Shown here: positions 2,980-14,848 of the stretch, piece by piece | How positions within the stretch are numbered: position 1 is the first letter of the stretch | Layout of the letters: each line of letters opens with the position of its first letter | Source: a bacterium | Lineage (GTDB): Bacteria; Thermosulfidibacterota; Thermosulfidibacteria; Thermosulfidibacterales; Thermosulfidibacteraceae | NCBI GenBank assembly: GCA_027022065.1 | Contig: JALVZS010000014.1 | Coordinates: 1-15,691, forward strand | Reading direction: 5' to 3' | Length of the DNA: 15,691 nucleotides | Notes under the pieces: model-generated | Seen by the model: only the letters and a program-made list of their open reading frames with translations | Told to the model about the DNA's origin: nothing | Databases searched by the model: none | Made by a program: the position numbers and the translations under genes

Positions 2980-3001
2980 GGGTAGGGGTAATCCCCTACC
3001 C
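2980..3001. terminator. Hairpin between convergent rbr and recG, probable bidirectional terminator
   Basis: The sequence holds a perfect 9-bp stem, GGGTAGGGG at 2980-2988 pairing with CCCCTACCC at 2993-3001, around a TAAT loop. It begins 5 bases after the rubrerythrin stop and covers the recG stop codon (2996-2998 on the minus strand). Its position between two converging genes fits a shared terminator. No run of T follows on either strand, so it is not a canonical intrinsic terminator and may work weakly, with Rho, or only as an mRNA 3' end stabiliser. Confidence 0.5.
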
Positions 3002-5095
3002 CCCTTCCACATAGGAGAGCCTCTCCAAGATCCCTTTCCTTTCCAGTACCTCTTTAAGTAATCTATTTTCAGGCTTCATAAGGGCAAAGTCTTCCTCAAT
3101 GAGGTTGAAAGCTGCCCTTCTTGCATCCTGCAGTATTTCTCTGTCCTTTAGTATATCGGCCACGCGGAACTCGGTAAGCCCAGACTGCCTCACTCCCAGA
3201 AGCTCCCCAGGCCCCCTTATTTTTAGGTCCTCCTCGGCAATTTTGAAGCCATCCGTAGTCTCCTCCAGCACTTTGAGCCTCATGTAGCTCGTAGAGCCCA
3301 CCTTTTCGGAGCTTGTCATCAAGAGACAATACGATCTGTGCTCACCCCTTCCCACCCTTCCTCTAAGCTGATGAAGCTGTGAAAGGCCAAAGCGTTCGGC
3401 TCCCTCAACCATCATAACAGTGGCGTTGGGAACATCCACCCCCACCTCCACCACTGTGGTGCACACAAGCACATGTATCTTTCCCTCCTTAAACTCCCTC
3501 ATAACCCTTTCCTTCTCCTGCCCGTTCATCCTCCCATGAAGAAGCCCCACCCTAAACTCTTTGAACCTTTCCGCTATGAGAGGATACATCTCCAAAACCG
3601 AGGGAAGGTCCATCTTCTCAGACTCCTCTATAAGGGGAAAAACTATGTAAGCCTGCCTGCCTTTCCTGAGCTGGCTCTCTATAAACGCGTAGGCCTTCTC
3701 CCTGTCTTTGGGAGTTATCACTCTGGTTATCACCGGCTTTCTCCCCTTGGGCAGCTCATCTATCACAGAAACATCCAGATCCCCGTAAACCGTCAGCGCC
3801 AAGGTGCGGGGAATGGGAGTTGCAGTCATAACAAGGAGGTCGCAGTTTTCCCCCTTTTCCCTCAAGGCCTTCCTCTGCATCACTCCGAAGCGGTGCTGCT
3901 CGTCTATAACCGCAAGGCCAAGGGCCTTAAAGTTCACCCTCTCCTGTATGAGAGCGTGCGTTCCCACAACGATGTTCACGGCACCGCTCAAAAGGCCCCT
4001 GAGTATAATTTCCTTTTCGCCCCTGGGCGTGGATGAGGTAAGAAGGGCCACATTCACGGAAAGGCCCTTCGTCATCTCCCTTATGTTCCTGTAGTGCTGC
4101 TCCGCAAGTATTTCTGTAGGTGCCATAAAGGCCACCTGATATCCGTTGTCCACCGCCACCAAAGATGCGGCAACGGCAACCACGGTCTTACCTGAGCCCA
4201 CATCCCCCTGAATAAGCCTGTTCATGGGCTCAGGCTTTGCCATGTCGTTCAGTATCTCCTTTAGCACCCTCCTCTGAGCACTGGTAAGCTCAAAGGGAAG
4301 AGACGAGATAAACCTCTTTAAAAGCTGGGAGTTTGTATTGAAGGCTATCCCCTTAATCCTCCTAACCCCCGCCCTTCTCATGGCGAGGGCCACCTGCGTA
4401 AGGAAGAACTCCTCAAATATGAGCCTGTAGTGCCCCCTGCTCCTTCTGGCCTTCAGTTTTTCAGGCTCATCAAGCCCAAAGTGAACGATCCTGAAGGCCT
4501 CGGGAAGAGAGGGCATGCTCCTTGAAGAGAGGATGGAAGCGGGTATGTACTCCTCATAAACCGCCTCAAGCTCCTTTATGCACGAGTCCACAATCTTCTC
4601 AACGGTCTTTTGCCCCACCCCTTCCAAAGAAGGGTAAACAGGGAGTATCCTGGCAAACTTCTCAAGATCAACGAGCTCGTAATCCCTTGTTTCGGGATGA
4701 ACCACCTCAAGGCAGCGCTCGTACCTGTTGTAGCGCACATCCCCCACAACTAAAAACCTCTTCCCCTCGGCAAAGCGCTTCTTGAAGGCAGAGGCCTTGA
4801 AGTTGAACCACTTTGCCTTGATGATTCCTGTGTCATCCCTGAAGATCACTTCAAATATGTCTGTTCTCTTCTCTACAACGGATGCGCTCCAAACTTCCCC
4901 AATAAATACAGCCCTTTCCCCTGGTCGCAACTGCCCAATTTTTTTGATTTTCCTTCTGTCCTCGTAATCCCTAGGTATAAAGTAGAGCATGTCCTCAAGG
5001 GTGTTCACCCCCGCCTTCTTCAACACCTTAGCCCTCTGCGGGCCTACGTTCTTCACATACTGTATGTCCTTTGAGAGAACCTCAAAGAGTTTCAT
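2996..5095 (-). CDS. recG: ATP-dependent DNA helicase RecG
   Basis: RecG is a superfamily 2 helicase that regresses stalled replication forks and processes branched recombination intermediates. The 699-residue protein has the N-terminal wedge (OB-fold) domain at about residues 60-150. Next come Walker A GDVGSGKT at 297-304, the DEQH box at 398-401 and TATPIPRTLAL (motif III and its continuation). The C-terminal helicase half carries VVEVGVDVPNAT and LHQLRGRVGRG. Length is normal and all helicase motifs look intact. The ATG at 5095 overlaps the aroA stop as ATGA, with GGAAGG directly before it, so translation is coupled to aroA. This is the last gene of the minus-strand operon that starts behind the cobalamin riboswitch. 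A DNA-repair gene is an odd passenger there, and an internal promoter cannot be excluded. Confidence 0.96.
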   Translation of the reverse strand: MKLFEVLSKDIQYVKNVGPQRAKVLKKAGVNTLEDMLYFIPRDYEDRRKIKKIGQLRPGERAVFIGEVWSASVVEKRTDIFEVIFRDDTGIIKAKWFNFKASAFKKRFAEGKRFLVVGDVRYNRYERCLEVVHPETRDYELVDLEKFARILPVYPSLEGVGQKTVEKIVDSCIKELEAVYEEYIPASILSSRSMPSLPEAFRIVHFGLDEPEKLKARRSRGHYRLIFEEFFLTQVALAMRRAGVRRIKGIAFNTNSQLLKRFISSLPFELTSAQRRVLKEILNDMAKPEPMNRLIQGDVGSGKTVVAVAASLVAVDNGYQVAFMAPTEILAEQHYRNIREMTKGLSVNVALLTSSTPRGEKEIILRGLLSGAVNIVVGTHALIQERVNFKALGLAVIDEQHRFGVMQRKALREKGENCDLLVMTATPIPRTLALTVYGDLDVSVIDELPKGRKPVITRVITPKDREKAYAFIESQLRKGRQAYIVFPLIEESEKMDLPSVLEMYPLIAERFKEFRVGLLHGRMNGQEKERVMREFKEGKIHVLVCTTVVEVGVDVPNATVMMVEGAERFGLSQLHQLRGRVGRGEHRSYCLLMTSSEKVGSTSYMRLKVLEETTDGFKIAEEDLKIRGPGELLGVRQSGLTEFRVADILKDREILQDARRAAFNLIEEDFALMKPENRLLKEVLERKGILERLSYVEGG

Positions 5096-6357
5096 CCTTC
5101 CAGGACTTCAAAGAAATCAGGATAGGAAATGGATACCCACTGCGGCTCCTCTATCTCCACACCCTCCCTTGAGGCAAGCCCCGCAACTGCAAGCATCATG
5201 GCGATTCTGTGGTCTCTGTGGGAAAAGCACCTTCCACCCTTTGGAGGAGAAGGGCCTCTAACCACCATTCCGTCGGAAAGCTCCTCTATATCAACCCCAA
5301 GCCTCTTAAGCTCGGAAACCGTGGAGGATATGCGATCGCTCTCTTTAACCCTCAGCTCCCCCGCATCCTTCACAACCGTTTCTCCTTCAGCAAAAGAGGC
5401 AACTAGGCAGAGAAGCGGCATCTCATCTATCATGGAAGGCAGTCTTTCCTTACCAATTACTATTCCTTTAAGGTAAGGCGTGTATCTTGCCTCCACAACA
5501 CCCACAGGCTCCCCAAGCCTTTCTTCCTCAATTTCCCAGCTAACATCGGCCCCCATCTCCCTGAGAGCCTCAAAGAAGCTTATCCTTGTGGGATTGAGAA
5601 GAACACCCTCTACTACCACATGGCTTCCAGGAATCAATACGGCAGCAGCAACCCAGTATGCCGCAGAAGAAGGATCCCCCGGTACCTCAAAGGAAAAGGA
5701 AAAAGGGACAAAGGGCTTAAGTTTTACCCTCAGGCCCTTCACCTCCACATCCCCGCCAAGGGCTTTCAGCATCCTCTCGGTGTGGTCCCTGCTCTTAAAA
5801 GGCTCCTCCACCACAGTCGCGCCTTCCGCCCTCATGCCCGCAAGGAGAATGGCAGACTTCACCTGCGCACTTGCCACCTTTGTTTTATAGCTTATTCCCC
5901 TGAGCTTTCCGCCTCTGCACGCTATAGGAAGCCTCTCCGCATCATTCCTGCCCATGAAGGAAGCCCCCATTAAAGAAAGGGGCTCCACCACCCTTCTCAT
6001 GGGCCTTTTTCTCAAGGACTCATCCCCCGTGATAACGAAAAAGAAGGGATAGCCCGAAAGCAACCCCATGAGAAGGCGGGCCGTGGTTCCCGAGTTTCCC
6101 GCATCAAGCACATCCTCCGGCTCCCTCAATCCCCCTTTTATGAAAAATCCCCCTTCAGCCTTTTCAAAGCCAACACCACAAGCCTCAAGGCAGGCCTTTG
6201 TGGAAAGGCAATCCCTGGATAGAAGAGGCCTTCCCACAAAGCACCTCCCTGAAGAAACCGAGGCAAGCATAAAGGCCCTGTGCGTCAGAGACTTATCTGA
6301 AGGAACCGAAAGCCTCCTCACAAAATTTTTAACGGGTTCAATCCTTATCCTCTCCAT
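5092..6357 (-). CDS. aroA: 3-phosphoshikimate 1-carboxyvinyltransferase (EPSP synthase)
   Basis: AroA joins phosphoenolpyruvate to shikimate-3-phosphate, the sixth step of the shikimate pathway. The 421-residue product has the N-terminal SDKSLTHR segment (K22 region, substrate binding) at residues 20-27 and GNSGTTAR at 87-94, which contacts phosphoenolpyruvate. A DE-containing stretch, IDEMPLLCLVASF, precedes the second half. RDHRIAMM, the C-terminal family signature, lies at 381-388. Length is normal. The chosen ATG at 6357 gives the standard start MERIRIEP with GGTGG/GGCAGG just upstream; a longer in-frame reading to 6441 would add 28 residues unlike the family and lies inside cobA. The start overlaps the end of cobA by 20 bases, and the stop overlaps recG by 4. 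Confidence 0.95.
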   Translation of the reverse strand: MERIRIEPVKNFVRRLSVPSDKSLTHRAFMLASVSSGRCFVGRPLLSRDCLSTKACLEACGVGFEKAEGGFFIKGGLREPEDVLDAGNSGTTARLLMGLLSGYPFFFVITGDESLRKRPMRRVVEPLSLMGASFMGRNDAERLPIACRGGKLRGISYKTKVASAQVKSAILLAGMRAEGATVVEEPFKSRDHTERMLKALGGDVEVKGLRVKLKPFVPFSFSFEVPGDPSSAAYWVAAAVLIPGSHVVVEGVLLNPTRISFFEALREMGADVSWEIEEERLGEPVGVVEARYTPYLKGIVIGKERLPSMIDEMPLLCLVASFAEGETVVKDAGELRVKESDRISSTVSELKRLGVDIEELSDGMVVRGPSPPKGGRCFSHRDHRIAMMLAVAGLASREGVEIEEPQWVSISYPDFFEVLEG

Positions 6358-7081
6358 CCTGCCCACCACAAAAAGCCACCGCCCTGCCCACAATCCACAC
6401 AGCAGGGGGTCTAAAGCCAAAAGATTTTTTGATCTGCACAAGCTCGCCTAAAGTGGTTTTCACAATCCTCTCCCCCTCAAGCCCCACCGCCTCAGCAACC
6501 AAAACGGGCGTCTTATCAGAAAGCCCCTCCGCCATAAGGCTTTCTGCTATCTCCTCCATGGTGGACACTCCCATGTAAACCACAATGGTGCCCCCCAGCT
6601 CTACAAGCTGCCTGTAGGGGATATTTAGTCCCTTTCCCTCCTTTCTGTGACCCGTTACAAAGGAAACCACAGAAGAACAATCCCTGTGGGTTAGAGGAAC
6701 CTTGGCAGCCGCCGCAGCAGCAGACGCAGCAGTAACCCCAGGAACCACTTCAAAATCAACCCCCTCTTTCTTCAGAGCCTCCATCTCCTCCGCAGCCCTG
6801 CCGAACACAAGGGGATCCCCTCCCTTCAAACGAACCACCACCTTCCCCTCTTTTGCCCTTTTAACAAGCAACCTGTTTATCTCATCCTGAGGCATCGTGT
6901 GCCTTCCCTTCTCCTTCCCCACATACACAAGCTCGGCTTTAGAAGCATACCTGAGCACCTCAGAGGAGACAAGGTGATCGTAAAAGACCACATCTGCCCT
7001 CCTCAAAACCTCAACCGCCCTAAGGGTCAGAAGCCCAGGATCTCCAGGACCCGCTCCCACAAGGTAAACCTTACCTGCCAA
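6338..7081 (-). CDS. cobA: Uroporphyrinogen-III C-methyltransferase (SUMT)
   Basis: CobA uses two S-adenosylmethionine molecules to methylate uroporphyrinogen III at C2 and C7, giving precorrin-2, the branch point to siroheme and cobalamin. The 247-residue product shows the SAM-binding loop GAGPGDPGLL at 9-18, RLKGGDPLVFGR at 83-94, PGVTAASA at 113-120 and TGH at 142-144, all diagnostic of SUMT. It lacks the CysG dehydrogenase/ferrochelatase domain and any fused HemD domain. The start is a TTG at 7081, 11 bases before the end of the upstream binding-protein gene, with GAGAGGA nearby. No ATG or GTG fits better. Placement behind a cobalamin riboswitch and downstream of cbiK supports a role in corrin or siroheme supply. 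Confidence 0.94.
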   Translation of the reverse strand: MAGKVYLVGAGPGDPGLLTLRAVEVLRRADVVFYDHLVSSEVLRYASKAELVYVGKEKGRHTMPQDEINRLLVKRAKEGKVVVRLKGGDPLVFGRAAEEMEALKKEGVDFEVVPGVTAASAAAAAAKVPLTHRDCSSVVSFVTGHRKEGKGLNIPYRQLVELGGTIVVYMGVSTMEEIAESLMAEGLSDKTPVLVAEAVGLEGERIVKTTLGELVQIKKSFGFRPPAVWIVGRAVAFCGGQDGEDKD

Positions 7082-7892
7082 CTTTCCTCTCCCAGTTAAG
7101 AAAAATCCTGTTGAGATAAATCACATTATCAAAGCTTTTGGTATTCGCCCTGGCAAAGGAAAGCTCATCCACCTTCAACACCTCAAAGTCCATGCCCTTA
7201 AAGCAGGGACGCTTCAAAGGATACACAGGGTTTCTGTTCATGGGACCCACTTGGTATATGTATATATCGGGCCTCAAAAGCCTTGCCCTTTCGCAGGAAA
7301 GCCTCACAAACTTTCTATTCTGCCTAATGAGATAGACCCCTCCCGCCTTTTCCACTATGTCGGCCACTATGTTTCTTGATCCCGCAAGAAGATAGGGGTT
7401 CTGCATCACCTCATAAACTACCCTAGGTCTCACCCTCAAAGGCCTAATGTGCTTAAGCTTCCTTTTCAGCCTCTCAACGAGAAGCCTCGCCTCCTTTTCC
7501 CTCTTCAGTAGCTTCCCCAAGCTTTCTATGTGCCTCAAAATACCCTCAAGGGTGTAGGGATCGTAGAGGTAGAACTTTGCACCGAATCTTTCCGCAAGCT
7601 CCTTTGAGAAGAACCTCTCCGAAGACGCCACAATCAAGGTGGGTCTTAAAGAGGCGACTATCTCCACATTGGGCCTTATGTGGCTTCCCACAAATACCGC
7701 CTTTGGGAAGAGCTTAACATTTCTCGTCTTTCCCACAACGAGCTTATCCGCTCCAAGGGCGTGAAGCACATCGGCCGCAGCAGGGGAGAGCACTACAATC
7801 CTCTCAGTAGAAGCAGAAGAGCTTGCGCCTGCAAGCAGCAACACCATAAACGCTAAAAAGAAGCCCCTCATCCACCTCTGAAGCAGAAACAT
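7071..7892 (-). CDS. Periplasmic substrate-binding protein of a BtuF/FepB-type ABC importer
   Basis: This is probably the periplasmic receptor that hands a corrinoid or metal chelate to the FecCD-type permease encoded two genes upstream. It starts with a signal peptide (basic residues, hydrophobic FFLAFMVLLLAG, small residues ASSSAS before TER). There is no lipobox cysteine, so the mature protein should be soluble. The two-lobed TroA/BtuF fold is suggested by IVVLSPAAADVLHALG, RPNVEIVASLRPTLIVAS, a long central helix rich in Lys/Arg and a second lobe. The substrate cannot be read from sequence. Start choice is uncertain: ATG 7892 (273 residues) has GGGAGG 10 bases upstream, TTG codons lie at 7901 and 7898, and ATG 7871 (266 residues) gives the most compact signal peptide. 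In every case the start lies inside the end of the ATPase gene, implying coupling. Confidence 0.8.
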   Translation of the reverse strand: MFLLQRWMRGFFLAFMVLLLAGASSSASTERIVVLSPAAADVLHALGADKLVVGKTRNVKLFPKAVFVGSHIRPNVEIVASLRPTLIVASSERFFSKELAERFGAKFYLYDPYTLEGILRHIESLGKLLKREKEARLLVERLKRKLKHIRPLRVRPRVVYEVMQNPYLLAGSRNIVADIVEKAGGVYLIRQNRKFVRLSCERARLLRPDIYIYQVGPMNRNPVYPLKRPCFKGMDFEVLKVDELSFARANTKSFDNVIYLNRIFLNWERKVGR

Positions 7893-8529
7893 CGCCAACA
7901 ACCCTCCCGTTTTTGAGAAATATCAGCCTGTCAAAGTAAAAGACAGCGGCATTAACATCGTGAAGTGCACATATCACCGTTTTTTCAGAAGTCCTCACCC
8001 TTTCAAAAAACAGCTTTTCCGTTGCCACATCCATGAAAGATGTGGGCTCATCAAAAAGCTGTACAGGGGCATCCTGATTAAACACCCTCGCCACATCCAC
8101 CCTTCTTCTCTCCCCGCCGGAAAGGCTCCAGTAGAACCTGTCAGAAAGCCCTGTAAGATTCCAGAATTCAATAACCTCTCTGGTTTTCTTGAGGTCCTCC
8201 TCCCCCGGTCTTCCCTGAAAGAACCAGGGAAACCTCCCCATCAGAACCACATGAAACACCGTGTAGTTGAAGGAGAGCCCCACATCTTGCACCAAAATAG
8301 AGATCCTTTTTGCCCTCTCCCTAAGGGACATCCTGTTTATCGGCATCCCATCCAGAAGTATCTCTCCCTCAAAGGGGACAAGGCCTCCTAGGGCAAGAAG
8401 GAGGGTGCTTTTCCCTGAGCCGTTCTCCCCCAAAACCGCTACTTTATCCCCATCGTTAACGCTTAAGCCATCCACATTAAGAACGAACCTTCCCCTTTTC
8501 ACTCTCAGCCTAAAAACCCGAATGCCCAT
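7804..8529 (-). CDS. FecE/BtuD-type ABC transporter ATP-binding protein
   Basis: This is the cytoplasmic ATPase of an iron-chelate/cobalamin-type (FecBCDE, BtuFCD) importer. In the 241-residue product, Walker A GENGSGKST lies at 34-42, the Q-loop glutamine at 81, signature LSGGE at 136-140, Walker B VQLFDEP at 156-162 and the switch histidine at 190. All are intact. The ATG at 8529 has AGGGGAAG at a proper distance and overlaps the permease stop by 20 bases; the frame runs open to 8640, but that part is permease coding sequence. Its 3' end overlaps the binding-protein gene by roughly 70-90 bases, an unusually long overlap. Neighbours identify it as partner of the 8510-9457 permease. Confidence 0.92.
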   Translation of the reverse strand: MGIRVFRLRVKRGRFVLNVDGLSVNDGDKVAVLGENGSGKSTLLLALGGLVPFEGEILLDGMPINRMSLRERAKRISILVQDVGLSFNYTVFHVVLMGRFPWFFQGRPGEEDLKKTREVIEFWNLTGLSDRFYWSLSGGERRRVDVARVFNQDAPVQLFDEPTSFMDVATEKLFFERVRTSEKTVICALHDVNAAVFYFDRLIFLKNGRVVGDVSASEVDEGLLFSVYGVAACRRKLFCFY

Positions 8530-9457
8530 ATCTTCCCCTTGTAAGAAGCAGGTATAAAAAGAAGCCCCCTCCCATGATGGATGTGAGCACCCCAACGGGA
8601 ATCTCCGCCCCCTTAAGCAGAAGGCTCCTTGAAAGCGCATCGGCAGACACTAGAATCAGCGCTCCTATCACACTGGAAAAGAGAAGCACATCACCAGCAG
8701 AAGCCCCAAAAAGCCTCCTCGCTATGTGAGGAGCTATAAGCCCCACAAAGGCGATTATCCCACAGAAACTCACAGAAAAGGCCACCATGACAGTAGCCAC
8801 GGCAAAAAAGGCCCTCCTCGCCCACACCACATCCGCACCCAGAGAAAGGGCCGTGTAGTCGTCAAAGGAAAGCACATCAAGAAGAGCCGCCTTCCTATAG
8901 GCAAAGAGAAAGCAGAAGAGGAAAGCACCCAAAACGGCAAGTATCTTTCCCCAATCAATAAGCGGTATGCCCCCCATGAGCCAGAAGACCACAGAAAGGA
9001 CGCTTCCCTCAAAGAGGAACTTCAAAAGGCTTATGGTGCTTGACGCAACCACATTGACCACTATACCCGCAAGTATGAGGGTAACGGGCTCTACCGTTCC
9101 TCCTCTCATGGATATGAGGTAGACAAAGGCAAACCCCAGGGCACCCGTAACCACTGCCAAAGCAGGCACAAAGCAGAAGGGAAGCCCAAGGGATATGGCA
9201 AGCACCGCACCCAGCGCACAGCTTGAGGCAGTTCCTGTGGTGAAGCCGTCGGCCAGAGGATTTCTTAAGACGATCTGATACAGGGCACCGCTTGCCCCCA
9301 GAAGGGCACCGTTGGCAAGGGCAAGCACCACCTTAGGAAGCCTCACCTCCTTAATTACGGCAAATCCCATAGGAGAAAAGGGATCCACGAAAGAGGCCCC
9401 CGCCATAAGGGCGCAGAAAAAGGCCAAAACAAGAGCGATTAACAAGGTCTTCCTCAT
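8510..9457 (-). CDS. FecCD/BtuC-type ABC transporter permease
   Basis: This is the inner-membrane channel of an importer for iron chelates, haem or cobalamin. The 315-residue protein is highly hydrophobic, with about nine or ten membrane segments, slightly shorter than the 330-350 usual for the family. Family motifs are RLPKVVLALANGALLGASGALYQ near the N-terminus (shown in part), RNPLADGFTTGT, and the cytoplasmic coupling region GLIAPHIARRLFG followed by PVGVLTSIMGG near the C-terminus. The ATG at 9457 overlaps the stop of the ABC-2 permease gene as ATGA. Together with the FecE-like ATPase and BtuF-like receptor it forms a complete importer. Sequence alone does not separate a cobalamin substrate from a haem or siderophore; the upstream cobalamin riboswitch favours a corrinoid or cobalt complex. 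Confidence 0.92.
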   Translation of the reverse strand: MRKTLLIALVLAFFCALMAGASFVDPFSPMGFAVIKEVRLPKVVLALANGALLGASGALYQIVLRNPLADGFTTGTASSCALGAVLAISLGLPFCFVPALAVVTGALGFAFVYLISMRGGTVEPVTLILAGIVVNVVASSTISLLKFLFEGSVLSVVFWLMGGIPLIDWGKILAVLGAFLFCFLFAYRKAALLDVLSFDDYTALSLGADVVWARRAFFAVATVMVAFSVSFCGIIAFVGLIAPHIARRLFGASAGDVLLFSSVIGALILVSADALSRSLLLKGAEIPVGVLTSIMGGGFFLYLLLTRGRYGHSGF

Positions 9458-10188
9458 CCTTCAGCCCTTCTTGCCACAAAAAGGGCAATCCCGAACAGCA
9501 CAAGCGCCAGACCCAGAAGGAGAAATTTGTAAAGAGGATTAACCTCAAGCCCCAGAAGACTCCCCCTTATGAGCTTTGTGGAGTAGGTAAGGGGAAACAC
9601 ATACCCAAGGGGTCTCACGAAAGGGGGCATCTTCTCAATGGGATAGAAGGTATCAGACAGAAATATCATGGGCGTCATGACGAAGGTGGAAAAGGCAGCC
9701 TGATCCGCGTGGGACCTCACCACCATGGCAACAATAAAGCCCAAAAGGGAGAAGCAGCATAGGTGAAGCAGAAAGTACACCACGAAGTCCAAACCCAACC
9801 TGTATCCCAGATGGGCAAAAATAGCATAGGCGAGAAGCACCACCGCAGGGATAACCCCTTTTGTTATCCCGTATAGCACCTCCCCCACAACGATCTCCCA
9901 CCTCTTTATGGGAGCCACCAGATACTCGTCAAAGAGCCTGTAGTAGTAGCGGGATATGTGGACCTCAAGGGATATCCCGTATGCCTGGTTCATGCTGCTC
10001 ATGGTTATGAGGCCTGGAATAAGGAACTTCACATAGCTTGTGCCGTTTATGTGAGCGTTTTTGCCTATGCCGTAGCCAAAGGCCAAAAGAAATAGGGCCG
10101 GATATATGATGGAGGCGGACCAGACCTTGATCCACCTGTTTTTGAAGTTCACTATCTCCCTGTAGTAAACGGCCCTTATCCCGTTCAA
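9454..10188 (-). CDS. ABC-2 type transporter permease (NodJ/DrrB-like)
   Basis: This is the membrane subunit of an exporter-type ABC transporter. The 244-residue protein has about six predicted membrane helices: near residues 22-44, 50-68, 105-125, 134-156, 166-184 and 216-238. The ABC-2 family signature region FVMTPMIFLSDTFYPIEKMP lies before the last helix. ABC-2 proteins mostly export lipids, polysaccharides or drugs, and the substrate here is unknown. The start is a TTG at 10188 that overlaps the stop of the ATPase gene as TTGA, and its own stop overlaps the FecCD permease start as ATGA. It therefore sits physically between the chelatase and the importer genes. An exporter within a cobalamin-type uptake operon is unusual. 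Confidence 0.88.
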   Translation of the reverse strand: MNGIRAVYYREIVNFKNRWIKVWSASIIYPALFLLAFGYGIGKNAHINGTSYVKFLIPGLITMSSMNQAYGISLEVHISRYYYRLFDEYLVAPIKRWEIVVGEVLYGITKGVIPAVVLLAYAIFAHLGYRLGLDFVVYFLLHLCCFSLLGFIVAMVVRSHADQAAFSTFVMTPMIFLSDTFYPIEKMPPFVRPLGYVFPLTYSTKLIRGSLLGLEVNPLYKFLLLGLALVLFGIALFVARRAEG

Positions 10189-11030
10189 ACCTCTATCCTC
10201 CTGCCCGTAAGCCTCAAGAAGACATCTTCCAGGTTCACCTCCCTTATCCTCACGGGAGCGTTAATGGCCCTCGCCCTCTCCATGGCCTCCTCCCTGCTTT
10301 TGAAAAACTCCTCCTCTATTCCGTTTTCCGTCTCCACCTCAAGAACGAACCTGCCCAGCTTCATCTTTAGCTCTTCAGGTTCTCCCTCAGCCACTATCCT
10401 CCCCCTGTCCATGATGAGTACCCTCTGGGCAAGGGCATCCGCCTCCTCTATGTAGTGCGTGGTAAGTATTACGGTTTTACCCTCCCTCCTCAGCCTCACG
10501 ATGAAGTCCCACATACTCCTCCTCACCGCAGGATCAAGCCCCACCGTAGGCTCATCAAGGTATAGTATCTCCGGATCGTGAAGCAGTGCCCTCGCTATAA
10601 CCGCCCTCCTCTTCATACCCCCAGAGAGCTCATCGGCTTTCCTGTTCTTGTGCTCAAGAAGACCTGTAAACTCCAGAACCTCATCTATCTTTCTATCAAG
10701 CCTTCTGCCAGAAAGGCCAAAGAGAAGCCCGTGTATCTTGAGATTCTGGTAAACCGTAAGATCCTTGTCCAGGTTATTGTGCTGCGGAACGACCCCTATG
10801 AGCTTCTTCATAGCCACATCGTAGGCATCAAAGAGCTTCCCCCTGTAGTAAACCTCTCCCTCGTATTGGTTTATCAGACCCGTCATGATCTTTATAGTTG
10901 TGGTTTTACCTGCACCGTTCGGACCCAGAAGAGCGAGGGTCTCCCCCTCCTCCACGGAGAAGGAGACCCCCTTTAGTGCCTCAATCCTACCGTATCTTTT
11001 CCTTAAGTCCCTTACCTCAACCTCACTCAA
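10185..11030 (-). CDS. ABC-2 type transporter ATP-binding protein (CcmA/DrrA-like)
   Basis: This is the ATPase partner of the adjoining ABC-2 permease. In 281 residues, Walker A GPNGAGKT lies at 36-43, the Q-loop Q83 at VPQHNN, signature LSGGMKR at 135-141, Walker B ILYLDEP at 155-161 and the switch histidine at 192. A DrrA-type C-terminal extension ending in EDVFLRLTGRRIEV follows. The start is TTG at 11030; an in-frame TAG two codons upstream excludes any longer form. The first bases overlap the end of cbiK by 8. Motifs look fully functional. The exported compound cannot be told from the sequence; candidates are discussed in the findings. Confidence 0.92.
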   Translation of the reverse strand: MSEVEVRDLRKRYGRIEALKGVSFSVEEGETLALLGPNGAGKTTTIKIMTGLINQYEGEVYYRGKLFDAYDVAMKKLIGVVPQHNNLDKDLTVYQNLKIHGLLFGLSGRRLDRKIDEVLEFTGLLEHKNRKADELSGGMKRRAVIARALLHDPEILYLDEPTVGLDPAVRRSMWDFIVRLRREGKTVILTTHYIEEADALAQRVLIMDRGRIVAEGEPEELKMKLGRFVLEVETENGIEEEFFKSREEAMERARAINAPVRIREVNLEDVFLRLTGRRIEV

Positions 11031-12003
11031 GCTCTATACCCGCATCCCTTGCAGCATCTCTTATGTGATCAACGATGATCTGAGCAATGGCCTTCTTCTC
11101 TCCCAGCCCCTCAAGAACAGGCTCCACCTCAAAACCGTTTCTCTCAAGCACATTTTTCCATGAATCCGGTTTATCTCCCGCCATGTCGTTGTGGGCGTGG
11201 TCCCCAGCAACCTCCATAAAGGGCTTTAGAATAACCTTCTTTGTTTTGGCCTCCTTTTTAAGCTCCTCCACCACATCCTCAAGGGAGGGATAGCCCTCAA
11301 CGGTTCCTATAAACACCTGCACATCGGGATAGAGCTTCCTAAACATCTTCTGGGCCTCGGCGTATATGGCGCAAGAGAAGTACTCGTTGCCATGCCCCAT
11401 GTAAACCAAAACCGCATGCTTCTTCCTCGCAAGCTCCACATCGTCTTTCAAGGCCTCAACGAGCCTCTTCAGATCCTTATGGTAATCGTATTTATCTCCC
11501 CAATCCCCCGCTATGGGCCTTCCAAAGGCTATCTTGTGGAAGGGCCTCCAGTGCTCCTTAACAGTCTCAATGGAGCGAAGCGCCCTTATGTAGGAAAGCA
11601 GGTCCTCCACCTGTTCCATGTGATATATGTGCGTGGACTGCACAACGATATCCTTATACCCTTCCTCCTGTAGCTCATCCATAACCGTAAGAAAGCCTTT
11701 AACATACAGCACCTCCCTAGGAACACCCATGGCCAGCCATTTAGAAGCCTCCTTCTGCCTCTTCTTCCATATCCTCCTTATAATGTTTGAAGTGAAGGTT
11801 ATCCTCACCTCGGTGTGGGGAAAGGCCTTTCTCACGGCATTGGTTATGTTCTCCACGGCCTTAAGACCAGAGGGGTAGGTGGTGCCAAAGAAGGCAAGCA
11901 CAATGGCACTCTTACGCTGCTTGTTCATTTTCGCCTCCGCATGATGGAAACCTGCAAAAAGCACCACAAACGCCAAAAGATAGGCTAAGCATTTTTTAAA
12001 CAT
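11023..12003 (-). CDS. cbiK: Sirohydrochlorin cobaltochelatase CbiK with signal peptide (CbiK-P type)
   Basis: CbiK is a class II chelatase that inserts cobalt (in vitro also iron) into sirohydrochlorin in the anaerobic cobalamin route. The fold is supported by AIVLAFFGTTYPSG at the mature N-terminus and by the three metal ligands expected from the Salmonella enzyme: H204 (YMGHGNE), E236 (GTVEGYP) and H269 (AGDHAHNDMAGD). Residues 1-24 form a clear signal peptide: MFKK, a hydrophobic core CLAYLLAFVVLFAGF and an AEA cleavage site before K25. A periplasmic CbiK is known in Desulfovibrio vulgaris, where it binds haem and has been linked to metal transport. GGGAGG at 12010-12015 precedes the ATG. 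Extra histidines H20, H21, H125 and H128 might bind haem or metal. A second strong start exists at M26 (see separate entry). Length is 326 residues. Confidence 0.93.
   Translation of the reverse strand: MFKKCLAYLLAFVVLFAGFHHAEAKMNKQRKSAIVLAFFGTTYPSGLKAVENITNAVRKAFPHTEVRITFTSNIIRRIWKKRQKEASKWLAMGVPREVLYVKGFLTVMDELQEEGYKDIVVQSTHIYHMEQVEDLLSYIRALRSIETVKEHWRPFHKIAFGRPIAGDWGDKYDYHKDLKRLVEALKDDVELARKKHAVLVYMGHGNEYFSCAIYAEAQKMFRKLYPDVQVFIGTVEGYPSLEDVVEELKKEAKTKKVILKPFMEVAGDHAHNDMAGDKPDSWKNVLERNGFEVEPVLEGLGEKKAIAQIIVDHIRDAARDAGIELE
11926..11938 (-). promoter_or_regulatory. Internal Shine-Dalgarno and ATG within cbiK (possible cytoplasmic form)
   Basis: On the minus strand GGAGG (11938-11934) stands 5 bases before an in-frame ATG at 11928-11926, codon 26 of cbiK. 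This ATG lies directly after the predicted signal peptidase site. Initiation here would give a 301-residue protein starting MNKQRKSAIVLAFF, complete for the chelatase fold but without the export signal. The motif overlaps the codons for the AEA cleavage site (GCG GAG GCG), so it could be a by-product of that protein sequence. Confidence 0.5.
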
Positions 12004-12017
12004 ATCACACCTCCCAT

Positions 12018-13439
12018 CTAGAAGTTAACCTGCATGCGGGTTCCTATCACATAGACGCTGTCCGCATCCCCGTTGCCGTTGGGATTGACCACAAACTGAA
12101 AGTCTGGAGTAAGCTCTAAGTGTCCGTCAAAGAAGCTCGCCTTGTAGTAAACCTCCACATGGTGCTCGTCCTCCATGTCCACCTTCTCGGGATGCCTGTA
12201 GTAGTCGGAGTAGAAGTATTCCCTATAGGCCTTCTGTGCATCGTCATTCACAAAAACCACCCCATACGCCGCACCAAGCTCATCATTCTCTCTGCCCCAG
12301 AGCCTACCAGAAAGCCTAAAGCCGAAGCTTACCGCCCCCTTGATGGGCACAGTATCAAGACTGAGCTCCCCATCGGAGTAGTCTCCTAAAACGGCATCCC
12401 CGTTCTCCCAACCTGCCCTCAAAAAGGCAATCAAAGTATCCTTCACCATCTCCTGATCAAAGCTTATACCAATCCCGTAGTTCTCCTCGTCATCGTCAAT
12501 GCGCCCCCTCATGTGCTTAATGTCGTCCACATCAAGGTGGGATCTCGTGTTGAACCAGCCGTAGAGCCTGTAGTGGCCCTCAAGGCCCGAGATGTTTATC
12601 TTTGCTCCCACCTCCGCTATGCCGAAGACGCCGTCAAACAGATCCTCCCAGTCGGCATCCGCAGAGGCAAAGCCCACGCCCACATACCACTTTCCAAGAT
12701 CGTAGGTGAACCTTAAACCTGGTCCGTTGTCGTCGGGCCACTCCACCGCAAGGTTGTTCACAAAGCCGCTTGAGAGAAACTGCTCGGTCTCATCGTTGGC
12801 CACCTCGTTCGTGTCAAAGTAGTTGGTGAGATCCACCTTACCAACGGTGAAGGTAAATGTGCCAGGGCCAATCTTCACATCCTGCTCAAACCAGGCCTCA
12901 GTTATTTCAGCATGGGCCGTGTCCGTCCCAGGAGCATCATCATTGAAGCCGCTTATGGTGGGCACCTCATCGTCAACGCCATCCCCCTGACCGCCCTCAA
13001 TGAGCATGTAGGCCCTTGCGTTCTTCCAAAGCTCGCTTTCAATCTCCAGGTCAAAGCTCCAGGCACCGTCCTGCACATCACCCTCATCATGCTCGCGGTT
13101 GTTGTTGTCATCGTTGTTGATGGTTCCCTGACCAACCATGGTGATGTCAGCACTGATTTTGATGTTGCCTAGGGCTTCCTTCAGGCTCTCCACCACCTTC
13201 GCCTTCTCCTCCACCTCCTCCTTGAGCTTTCTGGTTTCCTCAAGGTTTGCCTCCATCCGCCTCTGCTTCTCCTCATACACCTTCAAACGCTCTTCCAGCT
13301 CCTGAACCTGCTTTTTCAGCTGCTGGATGGTTCTCATTATCTGCTCAAGCTGTGCCTGAGAGATCTGAACATCAGAGGCATAGGCTCTTAAAGGAACAAA
13401 TAAGAAAACGGCGAACAGGAAAGCTGCAACCCACCTCAT
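12018..13439 (-). CDS. OprB-family outer-membrane porin with N-terminal coiled coil
   Basis: This is the first gene after the cobalamin riboswitch. The 473-residue protein starts with a signal peptide (MRWVAAFLFAVFLF, cleavage after AYA at 19-21). A coiled coil follows at about 26-90, full of Gln, Glu, Lys and Leu in heptads, probably anchoring to peptidoglycan or forming a trimer stalk. An Asp/Asn-rich patch lies at 109-124. The rest is alternating beta-strand sequence typical of a 16-strand porin, ending VYVIGTRMQVNF with the C-terminal Phe needed for outer-membrane assembly. The end NPNGNGDADSVYVIG resembles OprB carbohydrate-selective porins. The ATG at 13439 is fixed by AGGAGG at 13446-13451 with 6-base spacing; the open frame further upstream is riboswitch leader. 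It is probably the outer-membrane entry route for the operon's substrate, in place of a TonB-dependent receptor such as BtuB. Substrate unknown. Confidence 0.87.
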   Translation of the reverse strand: MRWVAAFLFAVFLFVPLRAYASDVQISQAQLEQIMRTIQQLKKQVQELEERLKVYEEKQRRMEANLEETRKLKEEVEEKAKVVESLKEALGNIKISADITMVGQGTINNDDNNNREHDEGDVQDGAWSFDLEIESELWKNARAYMLIEGGQGDGVDDEVPTISGFNDDAPGTDTAHAEITEAWFEQDVKIGPGTFTFTVGKVDLTNYFDTNEVANDETEQFLSSGFVNNLAVEWPDDNGPGLRFTYDLGKWYVGVGFASADADWEDLFDGVFGIAEVGAKINISGLEGHYRLYGWFNTRSHLDVDDIKHMRGRIDDDEENYGIGISFDQEMVKDTLIAFLRAGWENGDAVLGDYSDGELSLDTVPIKGAVSFGFRLSGRLWGRENDELGAAYGVVFVNDDAQKAYREYFYSDYYRHPEKVDMEDEHHVEVYYKASFFDGHLELTPDFQFVVNPNGNGDADSVYVIGTRMQVNF

Positions 13440-13472
13440 CCCACACCTCCTAAAAGTTTTCACCTTATAAGC

Positions 13473-13511
13473 AAAAAGCCCCGGCCCTCTCACAAGGAGG
13501 AACCGGGGCTT
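13473..13511 (-). terminator. Intrinsic terminator in the riboswitch leader
   Basis: Transcribed on the minus strand, AAGCCCCGG (13511-13503) pairs perfectly with CCGGGGCTT (13484-13476) around a loop of 18 bases that can pair further. A run of five T follows (13477-13473). It lies between the riboswitch and the porin ribosome binding site, 34 bases before the ATG, which is the position of an expression platform. Formation with ligand bound would stop transcription before the operon. Confidence 0.8.
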
Positions 13512-13583
13512 ACACCCACACACCACCAAAACCCTCACAGCCCCTCCCGCGAGGGCCTTTACCGGCCATAGGCCGGGTGAGGC
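13512..13583 (-). promoter_or_regulatory. Riboswitch expression platform with possible antiterminator
   Basis: Between aptamer and terminator, the minus-strand segment GGGGCT (13544-13539) is exactly complementary to AGCCCC in the terminator's 5' arm (13510-13505), so it could form an antiterminator. The same GGGGC can instead pair with GCCCTC (13556-13551) in a local hairpin with one bulge, which would free the terminator. A separate perfect hairpin, CCGGCC-TAT-GGCCGG (13576-13562), sits just after the aptamer. The switching scheme is inferred from complementarity only. Confidence 0.5.
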
Positions 13584-13752
13584 TGTCCTGGGCCGGTCTC
13601 CTGGCTTCCGGATCATCCTACTCGCCCGCGCCTTCCCAGGGCAAAAGCCCCAGTGGCCTGTCGCCCCTTCAAAGGGCCAAGCGGGCTTTCGTCCCCGGTC
13701 ACAGTTGCGGGGCAGCGCCGGACTTTCACCGGACTTCCCGCCACCCAGGACA
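13584..13752 (-). ncRNA. Cobalamin (adenosylcobalamin-type) riboswitch
   Basis: Read on the minus strand, the closing P1 helix is a perfect 9-bp pairing of TGTCCTGGG (13752-13744) with CCCAGGACA (13592-13584). Inside are the conserved landmarks of the class: GGTGAAAGTCC at 13730-13720, the AACTGTGAC core at 13706-13698, GACGAAAGCCC downstream, and the B12 box AAGCCAGGAGACCGGCC at 13607-13591. The size of about 169 nt is normal. It should sense cobalamin, most likely adenosylcobalamin, and repress the porin-cbiK-ABC-cobA operon through the terminator that follows. The exact ligand preference cannot be told from sequence. Confidence 0.96.
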
Positions 13753-13758
13753 AAAGCT

Positions 13759-13787
13759 TTGGCACTTTTATCACAAAGGAATTAAAT
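13759..13787 (+). promoter_or_regulatory. Candidate promoter of the radical SAM gene
   Basis: TTGGCA at 13759-13764 (five of six consensus) is followed after 17 bases by TTAAAT at 13782-13787 (four of six). Transcription would begin near 13794, one or two bases from the ATG at 13796, so the mRNA would be leaderless. The absence of a well-placed Shine-Dalgarno agrees with this. The region is AT-rich, so chance matches are possible. Confidence 0.4.
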
Positions 13788-13794
13788 TTGTAAA
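13767..13794 (-). promoter_or_regulatory. Candidate promoter of the cobalamin riboswitch operon
   Basis: On the minus strand TTTACA (13794-13789, five of six of the -35 consensus) is followed after 16 bases by GATAAA (13772-13767, four of six). The predicted start near 13760 lies about 8 bases before the riboswitch P1 helix, just where it is expected. It shares its DNA with the candidate promoter of the divergent radical SAM gene. Confidence 0.5.
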
Positions 13795-13795
13795 T

Positions 13796-14848
13796 ATGGG
13801 AGTATGTAAGCTCTGCAGAAAGGAATCCGTGGAGATCTCAAGCACCATAGGCTTTTGCGCAGACTGCATAAGAAGGCGCCCCGATGATACACTTCCCCAA
13901 ATAGAAGAGGTGCACAGAAGAAGCAGAAGGCTCTTTAACCTGCCGGAGGAGCCTCCCCGCTCAAAAGATGGTATCCCCTGCAATCTATGTGTGAGAGGGT
14001 GCCGCATAAAAGAGGGTGAAAGAGGCTACTGTGGGCTTTGGAGAAACGAGGGAGGAAGGCTCGTGGGAGCAGGCCCTGATGAGGCGCCCGTCTCCTGGTA
14101 TCTTGATCCCCTTCCCACAAACTGCGTTGCGGGCTTCACCTGCAAGGGAAACAGAATGACAGGCTTTTACAACCTTGCGGTATTCTACGAGGCCTGTAAC
14201 CTCAACTGCCTCTTCTGTCAAAACTGGCACTACAGAAGAACAAACCTTAAAAAGACAAACCCCACAGAAAGCCTGCTCTCATCCGTAACTCCAAAAACCG
14301 CCTGCATCTGCTACTTTGGAGGAGACCTAGGCCCCTTCTCCCCCCACGCCATCCCTCTATCAAGAAAGGCTCTCAAGCTCAAAGAGGACATTATGATATG
14401 CTGGGAAACAAACGGCGCAGAAAACTTCAACATCCTAAAAGAGATGGTCCAGCTCAGCCTCAAGACGAAGGGCATAGTAAAGATAGACATAAAGGCCTTC
14501 TCCCCCTCTATCTACAAGGCCCTTTGTCACATATCTGGCGAGAAAATACACGAGAACTTCAAAAAGCTTGCAGAACTCATGCTTGAAGAAAGGGATCATC
14601 CACCTCCCATTGTGGCTTCAACCCTACTTGTTCCAGGTTATGTAGACGAAGAGGAGCTTTACGGAATAGCCCGCCTCATATCCAGCGTAAGCCCTGATAT
14701 ACCCTGGTCTCTTCTTGCCTTTCATCCAAACTTTGTGCTTACGGATCTTCCCACCACTTCAAGATCCCACGCAGAAAAGGCCATTAAAATAGCAAAAGAG
14801 GCTGGCTTAAGACATGTAAATTTGGGAAACATACACCTTCTACGCTAG
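13796..14848 (+). CDS. Radical SAM protein (PflA-activase-like) with N-terminal zinc-ribbon-like cysteines
   Basis: The 350-residue protein has the radical SAM motif CNLNCLFC (C134, C138, C141) that holds a 4Fe-4S cluster for cleaving S-adenosylmethionine. GGDLGP (175-180) and a DIKAF segment (231-235) follow as in pyruvate formate-lyase activase relatives (COG1180/COG1313 group). Two cysteine sets precede it: C4/C7 and C21/C24, a probable zinc ribbon, and C62, C65, C69 and C79 in the CNLCVRGC...GYCG pattern typical of this group. The segment DPLPTNCVAGFTC adds C110 and C116. The substrate is unknown. The start is ATG 13796, giving MGVCKLC. The frame is open back to 13577, but that part is the antisense of the riboswitch. 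AAAGGA at 13775-13780 is too distant (15 bases) for a good ribosome binding site, hence a possible leaderless mRNA. It diverges from the cobalamin operon. Confidence 0.88.
   Translation: MGVCKLCRKESVEISSTIGFCADCIRRRPDDTLPQIEEVHRRSRRLFNLPEEPPRSKDGIPCNLCVRGCRIKEGERGYCGLWRNEGGRLVGAGPDEAPVSWYLDPLPTNCVAGFTCKGNRMTGFYNLAVFYEACNLNCLFCQNWHYRRTNLKKTNPTESLLSSVTPKTACICYFGGDLGPFSPHAIPLSRKALKLKEDIMICWETNGAENFNILKEMVQLSLKTKGIVKIDIKAFSPSIYKALCHISGEKIHENFKKLAELMLEERDHPPPIVASTLLVPGYVDEEELYGIARLISSVSPDIPWSLLAFHPNFVLTDLPTTSRSHAEKAIKIAKEAGLRHVNLGNIHLLR

Follow-up and report, generated by a model that had tools for sequence, protein, structure and literature searches.

The window, i.e. the 15,691 nucleotides at positions 1 to 15,691 of contig JALVZS010000014.1 (assembly GCA_027022065.1) from a bacterium of the Thermosulfidibacteraceae, carries on its minus strand an operon in which a gene for a CbiK-type cobaltochelatase is grouped, behind a cobalamin riboswitch, with genes for a porin, an exporter, an importer and the methyltransferase CobA. 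We discuss here what this chelatase and its transporters may do. In the direction of transcription the features are:

13574..13763, minus strand: aptamer of the cobalamin riboswitch (Rfam RF00174; cmscan 100.4 bits, E 1.6e-24, for a gathering score of 31.5)
about 13473..13511, minus strand: terminator hairpin and U run of the riboswitch expression platform (AAGCCCCGG...CCGGGGCTTTTT)
12018..13439, minus strand: OprB-family porin of 473 amino acids with a signal peptide (PF04966, E 3.4e-39)
11023..12003, minus strand: CbiK-type sirohydrochlorin cobaltochelatase of 326 amino acids, apparently exported (PF06180, E 1.3e-76)
10185..11030, minus strand: abc2A, ATPase of an ABC-2 exporter (PF00005, ABC_tran)
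9454..10188, minus strand: abc2B, permease of the ABC-2 exporter (PF01061, ABC2_membrane, E 2.2e-25)
8510..9457, minus strand: importer permease of FecCD/BtuC type (PF01032, E 3.1e-67)
7804..8529, minus strand: importer ATPase of FecE/BtuD type (PF00005; start set at the ATG at 8529)
7071..7892, minus strand: periplasmic substrate-binding protein of the haem/B12-binding type (PF01497, Peripla_BP_2, E 1.9e-15)
6338..7081, minus strand: cobA/SUMT, uroporphyrinogen-III C-methyltransferase (TIGR01469, 299 bits for a cut-off of 185; the PRK06136 cut-off is also passed)

From cbiK through cobA the successive genes overlap, and the porin gene is spaced 14 bp from cbiK. The expression platform (13462-13578, 117 nt) folds at -63.2 kcal/mol (z = -4.85). 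An earlier reading, made from the letters of the window only (the sequence-only reading), had placed such a riboswitch-led overlapping set, including a CbiK with a signal peptide, at 7071-13752; the RF00174 score, the Pfam and NCBIfam matches and the gene overlaps bear this out, except for the end of the range, which has to be moved to at least 6338 since cobA runs to this position.

The CbiK of the window begins with a Sec-type signal peptide (MFKKCLAYLLAFVVLFAGFHHAEA), whose hydrophobic core reaches 2.87 on the Kyte-Doolittle scale. Its catalytic pair of histidines, H204 and H269, is invariant among 8 sequences and aligns with CbiKP of Desulfovibrio vulgaris (2xvx) and CbiK of Salmonella (1qgo), the best match in the PDB being 2xvx/2xvy (122.8 bits). 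Judged on these features, the protein looks exported and active. FetB of Porphyromonas gingivalis (9b86) is also among its PDB relatives. FetB has been reported to act as a chelatase on porphyrins taken up by the cell, swapping their metal, and these porphyrins accumulate at the cell surface (PMC13402209); a CbiK-family protein functioning outside the cytoplasm therefore has a precedent. In the genome of the window (88% complete) no second, cytosolic chelatase was found besides the exported CbiK; this genome gives no match for CbiD, and its CobN also carries a signal peptide.

Does the export of CbiK go with particular neighbours? We collected 162 CbiK loci, 132 of which had sufficient flank for neighbour counts (genomes, contigs and loci are designated below by G, C and L numbers). 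FecCD lies at most 3.6 kb from 56/104 exported but only 2/28 cytosolic CbiK genes (Fisher 3.7e-6), and one of these two is a tandem copy beside an exported CbiK. Cytosolic CbiK adjoins the cobalt-uptake genes CbiM or CbiQ in G146, G152, G153 and G316; neither gene stands beside CbiK in any of the 15 exported-CbiK genomes of the phylum of G118 (probably the Deferribacterota), and CbiM is altogether absent from G103, G193, G280 and G003. As a genome-wide marker CbiM was uninformative: genomes that do not make B12 can have CbiM/NikM as well, so that only its linkage to cbiK tells. The CbiK tree requires at least 3 switches of localisation for the focused set and 13 for the wide one, and a cytosolic Chrysiogenes-like clade is nested within the exported clades. 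In the phylum of G118, CbiMNQO with cytosolic CbiK appears to take the place of the exported-CbiK module.

The ABC-2 pair is likewise linked to exported CbiK. In the taxonomic order of the window, cbiK-abc2A-abc2B are adjacent in G001, G002 and G008, and in G003 the ATPase gene is followed by the contig end, so that the pair accompanies cbiK in all the checkable relatives within this order. G118, G162, G165, G166, G173 and G193, all of the phylum of G118, share the order cbiK-abc2A-abc2B-fecCD-btuD-btuF, with or without a terminal SUMT gene, and four further genomes of this phylum have a divergent abc2A-abc2B pair flanking cbiA-cbiK-fecCD-btuD-btuF; G280, of the phylum of G030, has again cbiK-abc2A-abc2B-fecCD-btuD-btuF. 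From cbiK to btuF, the conserved order that the sequence-only reading proposed to look for recurs in two other phylum-level groups; the refuting condition named in that reading, relatives whose operon is without the ABC-2 pair, is not borne out. In G168-G172 the exported cbiK is accompanied by a methyltransferase gene only, and abc2A-abc2B-fecCD-btuD-btuF lies as one complete operon at another place in the genome. By profile search in the phylum of G118, an abc2B orthologue (at least 343 bits) is present in 15/15 exported-CbiK genomes versus 0/5 cytosolic-CbiK genomes (best score 152 bits; Fisher 6.4e-5), and in 0/6 CbiK-less genomes. The conserved order, this tracking and the module kept intact away from cbiK lead us to reject the simpler view, also put forward from the letters alone, that the ABC-2 pair is an unrelated passenger. 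As to family, abc2B matches ABC2_membrane PF01061 with 89.9 bits (cut-off 26.9), and both genes stay under the cut-offs of DrrAB and NodIJ (abc2A, best NCBIfam drrA, 266 versus 312 bits; abc2B, drrB 91 versus 223 and nodJ 74 versus 207).

A cobalamin riboswitch is upstream of nearly all examined loci, be it of cbiK, of cbiA-cbiK or of the transporter module. It heads cbiK or cbiA-cbiK operons in G001, G003, G103, G118, G150, G154, G155, G157, G162, G166, G173, G193 and G280, precedes cbiK in each of the four loci examined out of the five of G168-G172, and lies directly 5' of the ABC-2/FecBCD genes in L302 and L283; none exceeds the gathering score at the separate ABC-2/FecBCD operons of G168-G172. 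A porin gene upstream of cbiK is also found in G001, G003 and several Desulfobacterota loci.

The importer could be taken for a plain cobalamin uptake system, BtuFCD. The CbiK beside it would then be a biosynthetic chelatase working in the cytosol or prior to its export, and its signal peptide as well as the ABC-2 pair would be incidental. Such importers are indeed annotated BtuCDF, and in Desulfovibrio they share a B12 element with cbiK (Rodionov 2004, PMC545781). We find this improbable. The FecBCD linkage depends on the signal peptide of CbiK, the ABC-2 pair tracks CbiK export, and the module remains intact away from cbiK. Besides, the importer is far off the BtuCDF equivalog cut-offs: 160 versus 461 bits for BtuC (PRK09535), 95 versus 281 for BtuD and 29 versus 234 for BtuF; the best NCBIfam for the ATPase is a haem ABC ATPase, below its cut-off. 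The model of the binding protein (predicted local distance difference test, 92.9) has as closest structures the haem binders IsdE and ShuT and the B12 binder BtuF, with Z of 23-24. It shares the helical-backbone fold of BtuF (1n2z, Z 23.4), in a tie with the haem binders at Z 24, and the named siderophore binders rank lower (Z about 21 or less). The binding proteins of the module have in common G[ST]Hx[RK]PN (GSHxRPN), GPMN and a conserved arginine of an SRANT-type motif, and the GPMN region and this arginine are kept in more distant binding proteins adjoining exported CbiK. We infer that a planar anionic metallo-tetrapyrrole would suit such a protein.

The distribution of B12 synthesis bears on the role of CbiK. 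We retained as sole-chelatase genomes those having CbiD and a single CbiK, with a signal peptide, but neither CbiX nor CobN. In 29 CbiD-positive genomes the CbiX and CobN searches find no chelatase besides the exported CbiK, class III chelatases (CysG/Met8) being outside these searches (G003, G103, G150, G154, G155, G157, G162, G165, G166, G168, G169, G171, G172, G173, G193, G194, G223, G234, G245, G251, G265, G269, G280, G283, G287, G288, G293, G327 and G335); the weak CbiX matches in these genomes are CbiK itself, and G103, G157, G162 and G166 are complete single-contig genomes. Conversely, CbiD is missing from six CbiK-less genomes of the phylum of G118 and from the CbiK-less G004-G007 of the window's order. 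As these CbiK-less genomes are also without CbiD, CbiK goes with the making of B12 rather than with its salvage; G145 is the only genome of the G118 phylum that has CbiK but no CbiD.

These data are to be weighed against the possibility that the operon scavenges metallotetrapyrroles or corrinoids: the exported CbiK would bind external Co/Fe porphyrinoids, or exchange their metal, and pass them on to the importer, while the ABC-2 pair would expel another compound, for instance a ring stripped of its metal or a toxic by-product. The likeness of the binding protein to IsdE and BtuF goes in this direction, as do the metal exchange reported for FetB and the title of Lobo 2017, cited in PMC8587615, which describes D. 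vulgaris CbiKP as a haem-binding protein. Still, the CbiK-less genomes named above also lack CbiD, where scavengers devoid of B12 synthesis would be expected to retain CbiK; the TonB receptor is missing from the operon; the 29 genomes would be left without any known cobalt chelatase; and the swap with CbiM is not predicted. Scavenging therefore seems to us rather unlikely.

Gene content and order, the signal peptide, the conserved active site, the co-occurrences and the regulatory element being as observed, we hold it reasonably probable that the operon is the cobalt-acquisition branch of anaerobic B12 synthesis, with the metal inserted outside the cytoplasm by way of a sirohydrochlorin shuttle. 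CobA and a precorrin-2 dehydrogenase, which yield sirohydrochlorin in the cytosol, would make the ring there; the ABC-2 pair would export it to the periplasm, where the OprB porin would admit Co2+ and the exported CbiK, as its family, histidines and signal peptide suggest, would insert the cobalt. The binding protein with FecCD/FecE would then bring Co-sirohydrochlorin back into the cytosol, to CbiL and the enzymes that follow it, and at plentiful B12 the cobalamin riboswitch would close the loop. Sirohydrochlorin would thus serve as a home-made cobalt shuttle. This is the simplest model covering the gene content, the co-occurrence, the swap and the sole-chelatase status. The broader view, just on the probable side in our opinion, is that in several phyla the synthesis of the B12 ring is divided between two compartments, the exported ring trapping cobalt, returning as Co-sirohydrochlorin and replacing the importer of cobalt ions. 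Of the tetrapyrrole shuttle first suggested from the letters, comparative genomics thus favours the principle over the passenger, and transport of sirohydrochlorin and Co-sirohydrochlorin is what we would expect from it.

That suggestion left the choice between cobalt and iron. We favour cobalt because of the riboswitch control, the position inside cob clusters and the co-occurrence with CbiD. The same observations argue against an extracytoplasmic insertion of iron or of another metal, which would provide the periplasm or an importer with siroheme or haem; class II chelatases are promiscuous and the CbiK of Salmonella can support siroheme (PMC7689651), but we judge this very improbable.

Several points weigh against the shuttle. 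Signal peptides were assigned by a home-made hydrophobicity rule with a few manual corrections, and we infer the direction and the substrates of both transporters, the identity of the metal and the role of the porin. In L254 (G252, Desulfogranum-like) a signal-less CbiK overlaps FecCD-BtuD-BtuF within a cob cluster, which is a real exception; the same genome also holds an exported CbiK copy elsewhere. The swap pattern is broken in G265 (L256, Desulfobacterota), where exported CbiK adjoins CbiM and a neighbouring ABC transporter set, and the G002 locus is without FecBCD. G103 and many Desulfobacterota having exported CbiK and FecBCD contain no orthologue of the ABC-2 pair, therefore another exporter must be assumed there. 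In the sole-chelatase genomes a class III chelatase (CysG/Met8 type) may supply chelation: the precorrin-2 dehydrogenases of three clusters are short, with the NAD-binding domain only and, in one, a central domain added, which suggests dehydrogenase-only enzymes, though they may also chelate. Finally, few independent origins are available. ABC-2 offers just 2 phylogenetically independent contrasts, each of them concordant; FecCD offers 9, with 5.6 concordant versus 0.1 discordant (median p 0.06). The phylogenetic statistics fall short of proof for this association, consistent as it is.

Regarding other exporters, the proteins of about 600 amino acids adjoining exported CbiK in L034 and L054 were rejected as alternative ABC exporters, since their sequence resembles SLC13-type transporters. 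A sister ABC-2 subfamily of Desulfobacterota adjoins cobalamin riboswitches, TonB receptors, ChlI/ChlD or CobN in L261, L306, L307 and L312; elsewhere its context is generic, and with such mixed contexts the idea that it is always B12-related is unsupported. In the cobamide clusters of Sulfurospirillum (SMUL_1551-1554, SMUL_1565), CbiK-BtuC-BtuD-BtuF occur with an MsbA-like exporter between CbiJ and CbiA (PMC7755780). By analogy, this cluster possibly follows the same logic with a different exporter.

Part of the operon is familiar. Like its CbiK, FetB of the Iht haem system of P. gingivalis is a CbiK-family chelatase outside the cytoplasm, though in a haem/Mn-protoporphyrin context. A FecBCD-type importer lies alongside fetB, and the system includes a TonB receptor; to our knowledge there is no link of FetB to a cobalamin riboswitch. 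D. vulgaris also carries a cytosolic CbiK. Its CbiKP and btuCDF resemble our case by the exported CbiK family, the catalytic histidines, the B12-element and the FecBCD-type importer alongside (PMC545781; 2xvx/2xvy), but the window operon adds the ABC-2 exporter pair, the porin and cobA. As early as 2004 riboswitch control of cbiK-cbiL and btuCDF was described in Desulfovibrio, and no known cobalt transporter was found in the CbiK-type delta-proteobacteria (PMC545781). Exported CbiK and the riboswitch-cbiK-btuCDF arrangement are thus already known; the link to an exporter and the sole-chelatase evidence look new. In metallophore cycles, e.g. staphylopine with CntE and CntABCDF, a chelator is exported and its metal complex re-imported by an ABC importer. 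The window operon is comparable in grouping the ABC-2 pair, FecBCD and cobA (chelator synthesis); unlike in these cycles, the presumed chelator would be a biosynthetic intermediate, an enzyme would insert the metal in the periplasm, the pathway would consume the product, and the operon contains no TonB-dependent outer-membrane receptor. In anaerobic B12 synthesis, CbiMNQO with cytosolic CbiK likewise provides sirohydrochlorin with cobalt, but by importing free Co2+. In the open literature we found no paper proposing the export of the ring and the re-import of its cobalt form, nor the term "cobaltophore", subscription papers being mostly outside this search.

If true, the shuttle would move one of the core reactions of vitamin B12 synthesis out of the cytoplasm and keep the cobalt branch apart from the iron (siroheme) branch by compartment. 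It would give a reason for many sulfate reducers and Deferribacterota to export the only cobaltochelatase they have, and would show how cobalt is acquired in CbiK-type delta-proteobacteria and many anaerobes. It is testable in culturable bacteria.

The absence of a TonB-dependent receptor, noted from the letters, holds for the operon, which has the OprB porin instead, but not for the genome: a receptor is encoded on contig C238 under a second cobalamin riboswitch. There (L025, C238 5000-17774), the riboswitch L025:9233-9429 heads genes for the TonB-dependent receptor, DUF2162, MotA/ExbB, DUF2149, CobN and a CbiZ-domain protein, the last two with signal peptides, apparently for an exported corrinoid remodelling. 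This CobN is broken into 349 and 870 amino acids by an apparent frameshift; the G001 copy (L150) is intact (1249 amino acids).

Downstream of cobA in the window, and overlapping it, lies one more feature:

5092..6357, minus strand: aroA (TIGR01356, 412.9 bits)

It is probably a co-transcribed passenger of the operon. As aroA and then recG overlap serially (2996-6357), both may be co-transcribed with it, and the riboswitch may thus also affect shikimate and recombination genes. On the other side, a divergent radical-SAM gene of AmmeMemoRadiSam type (13718-14848, plus strand; 88 bits, below the cut-off) shares its intergenic region with the riboswitch.

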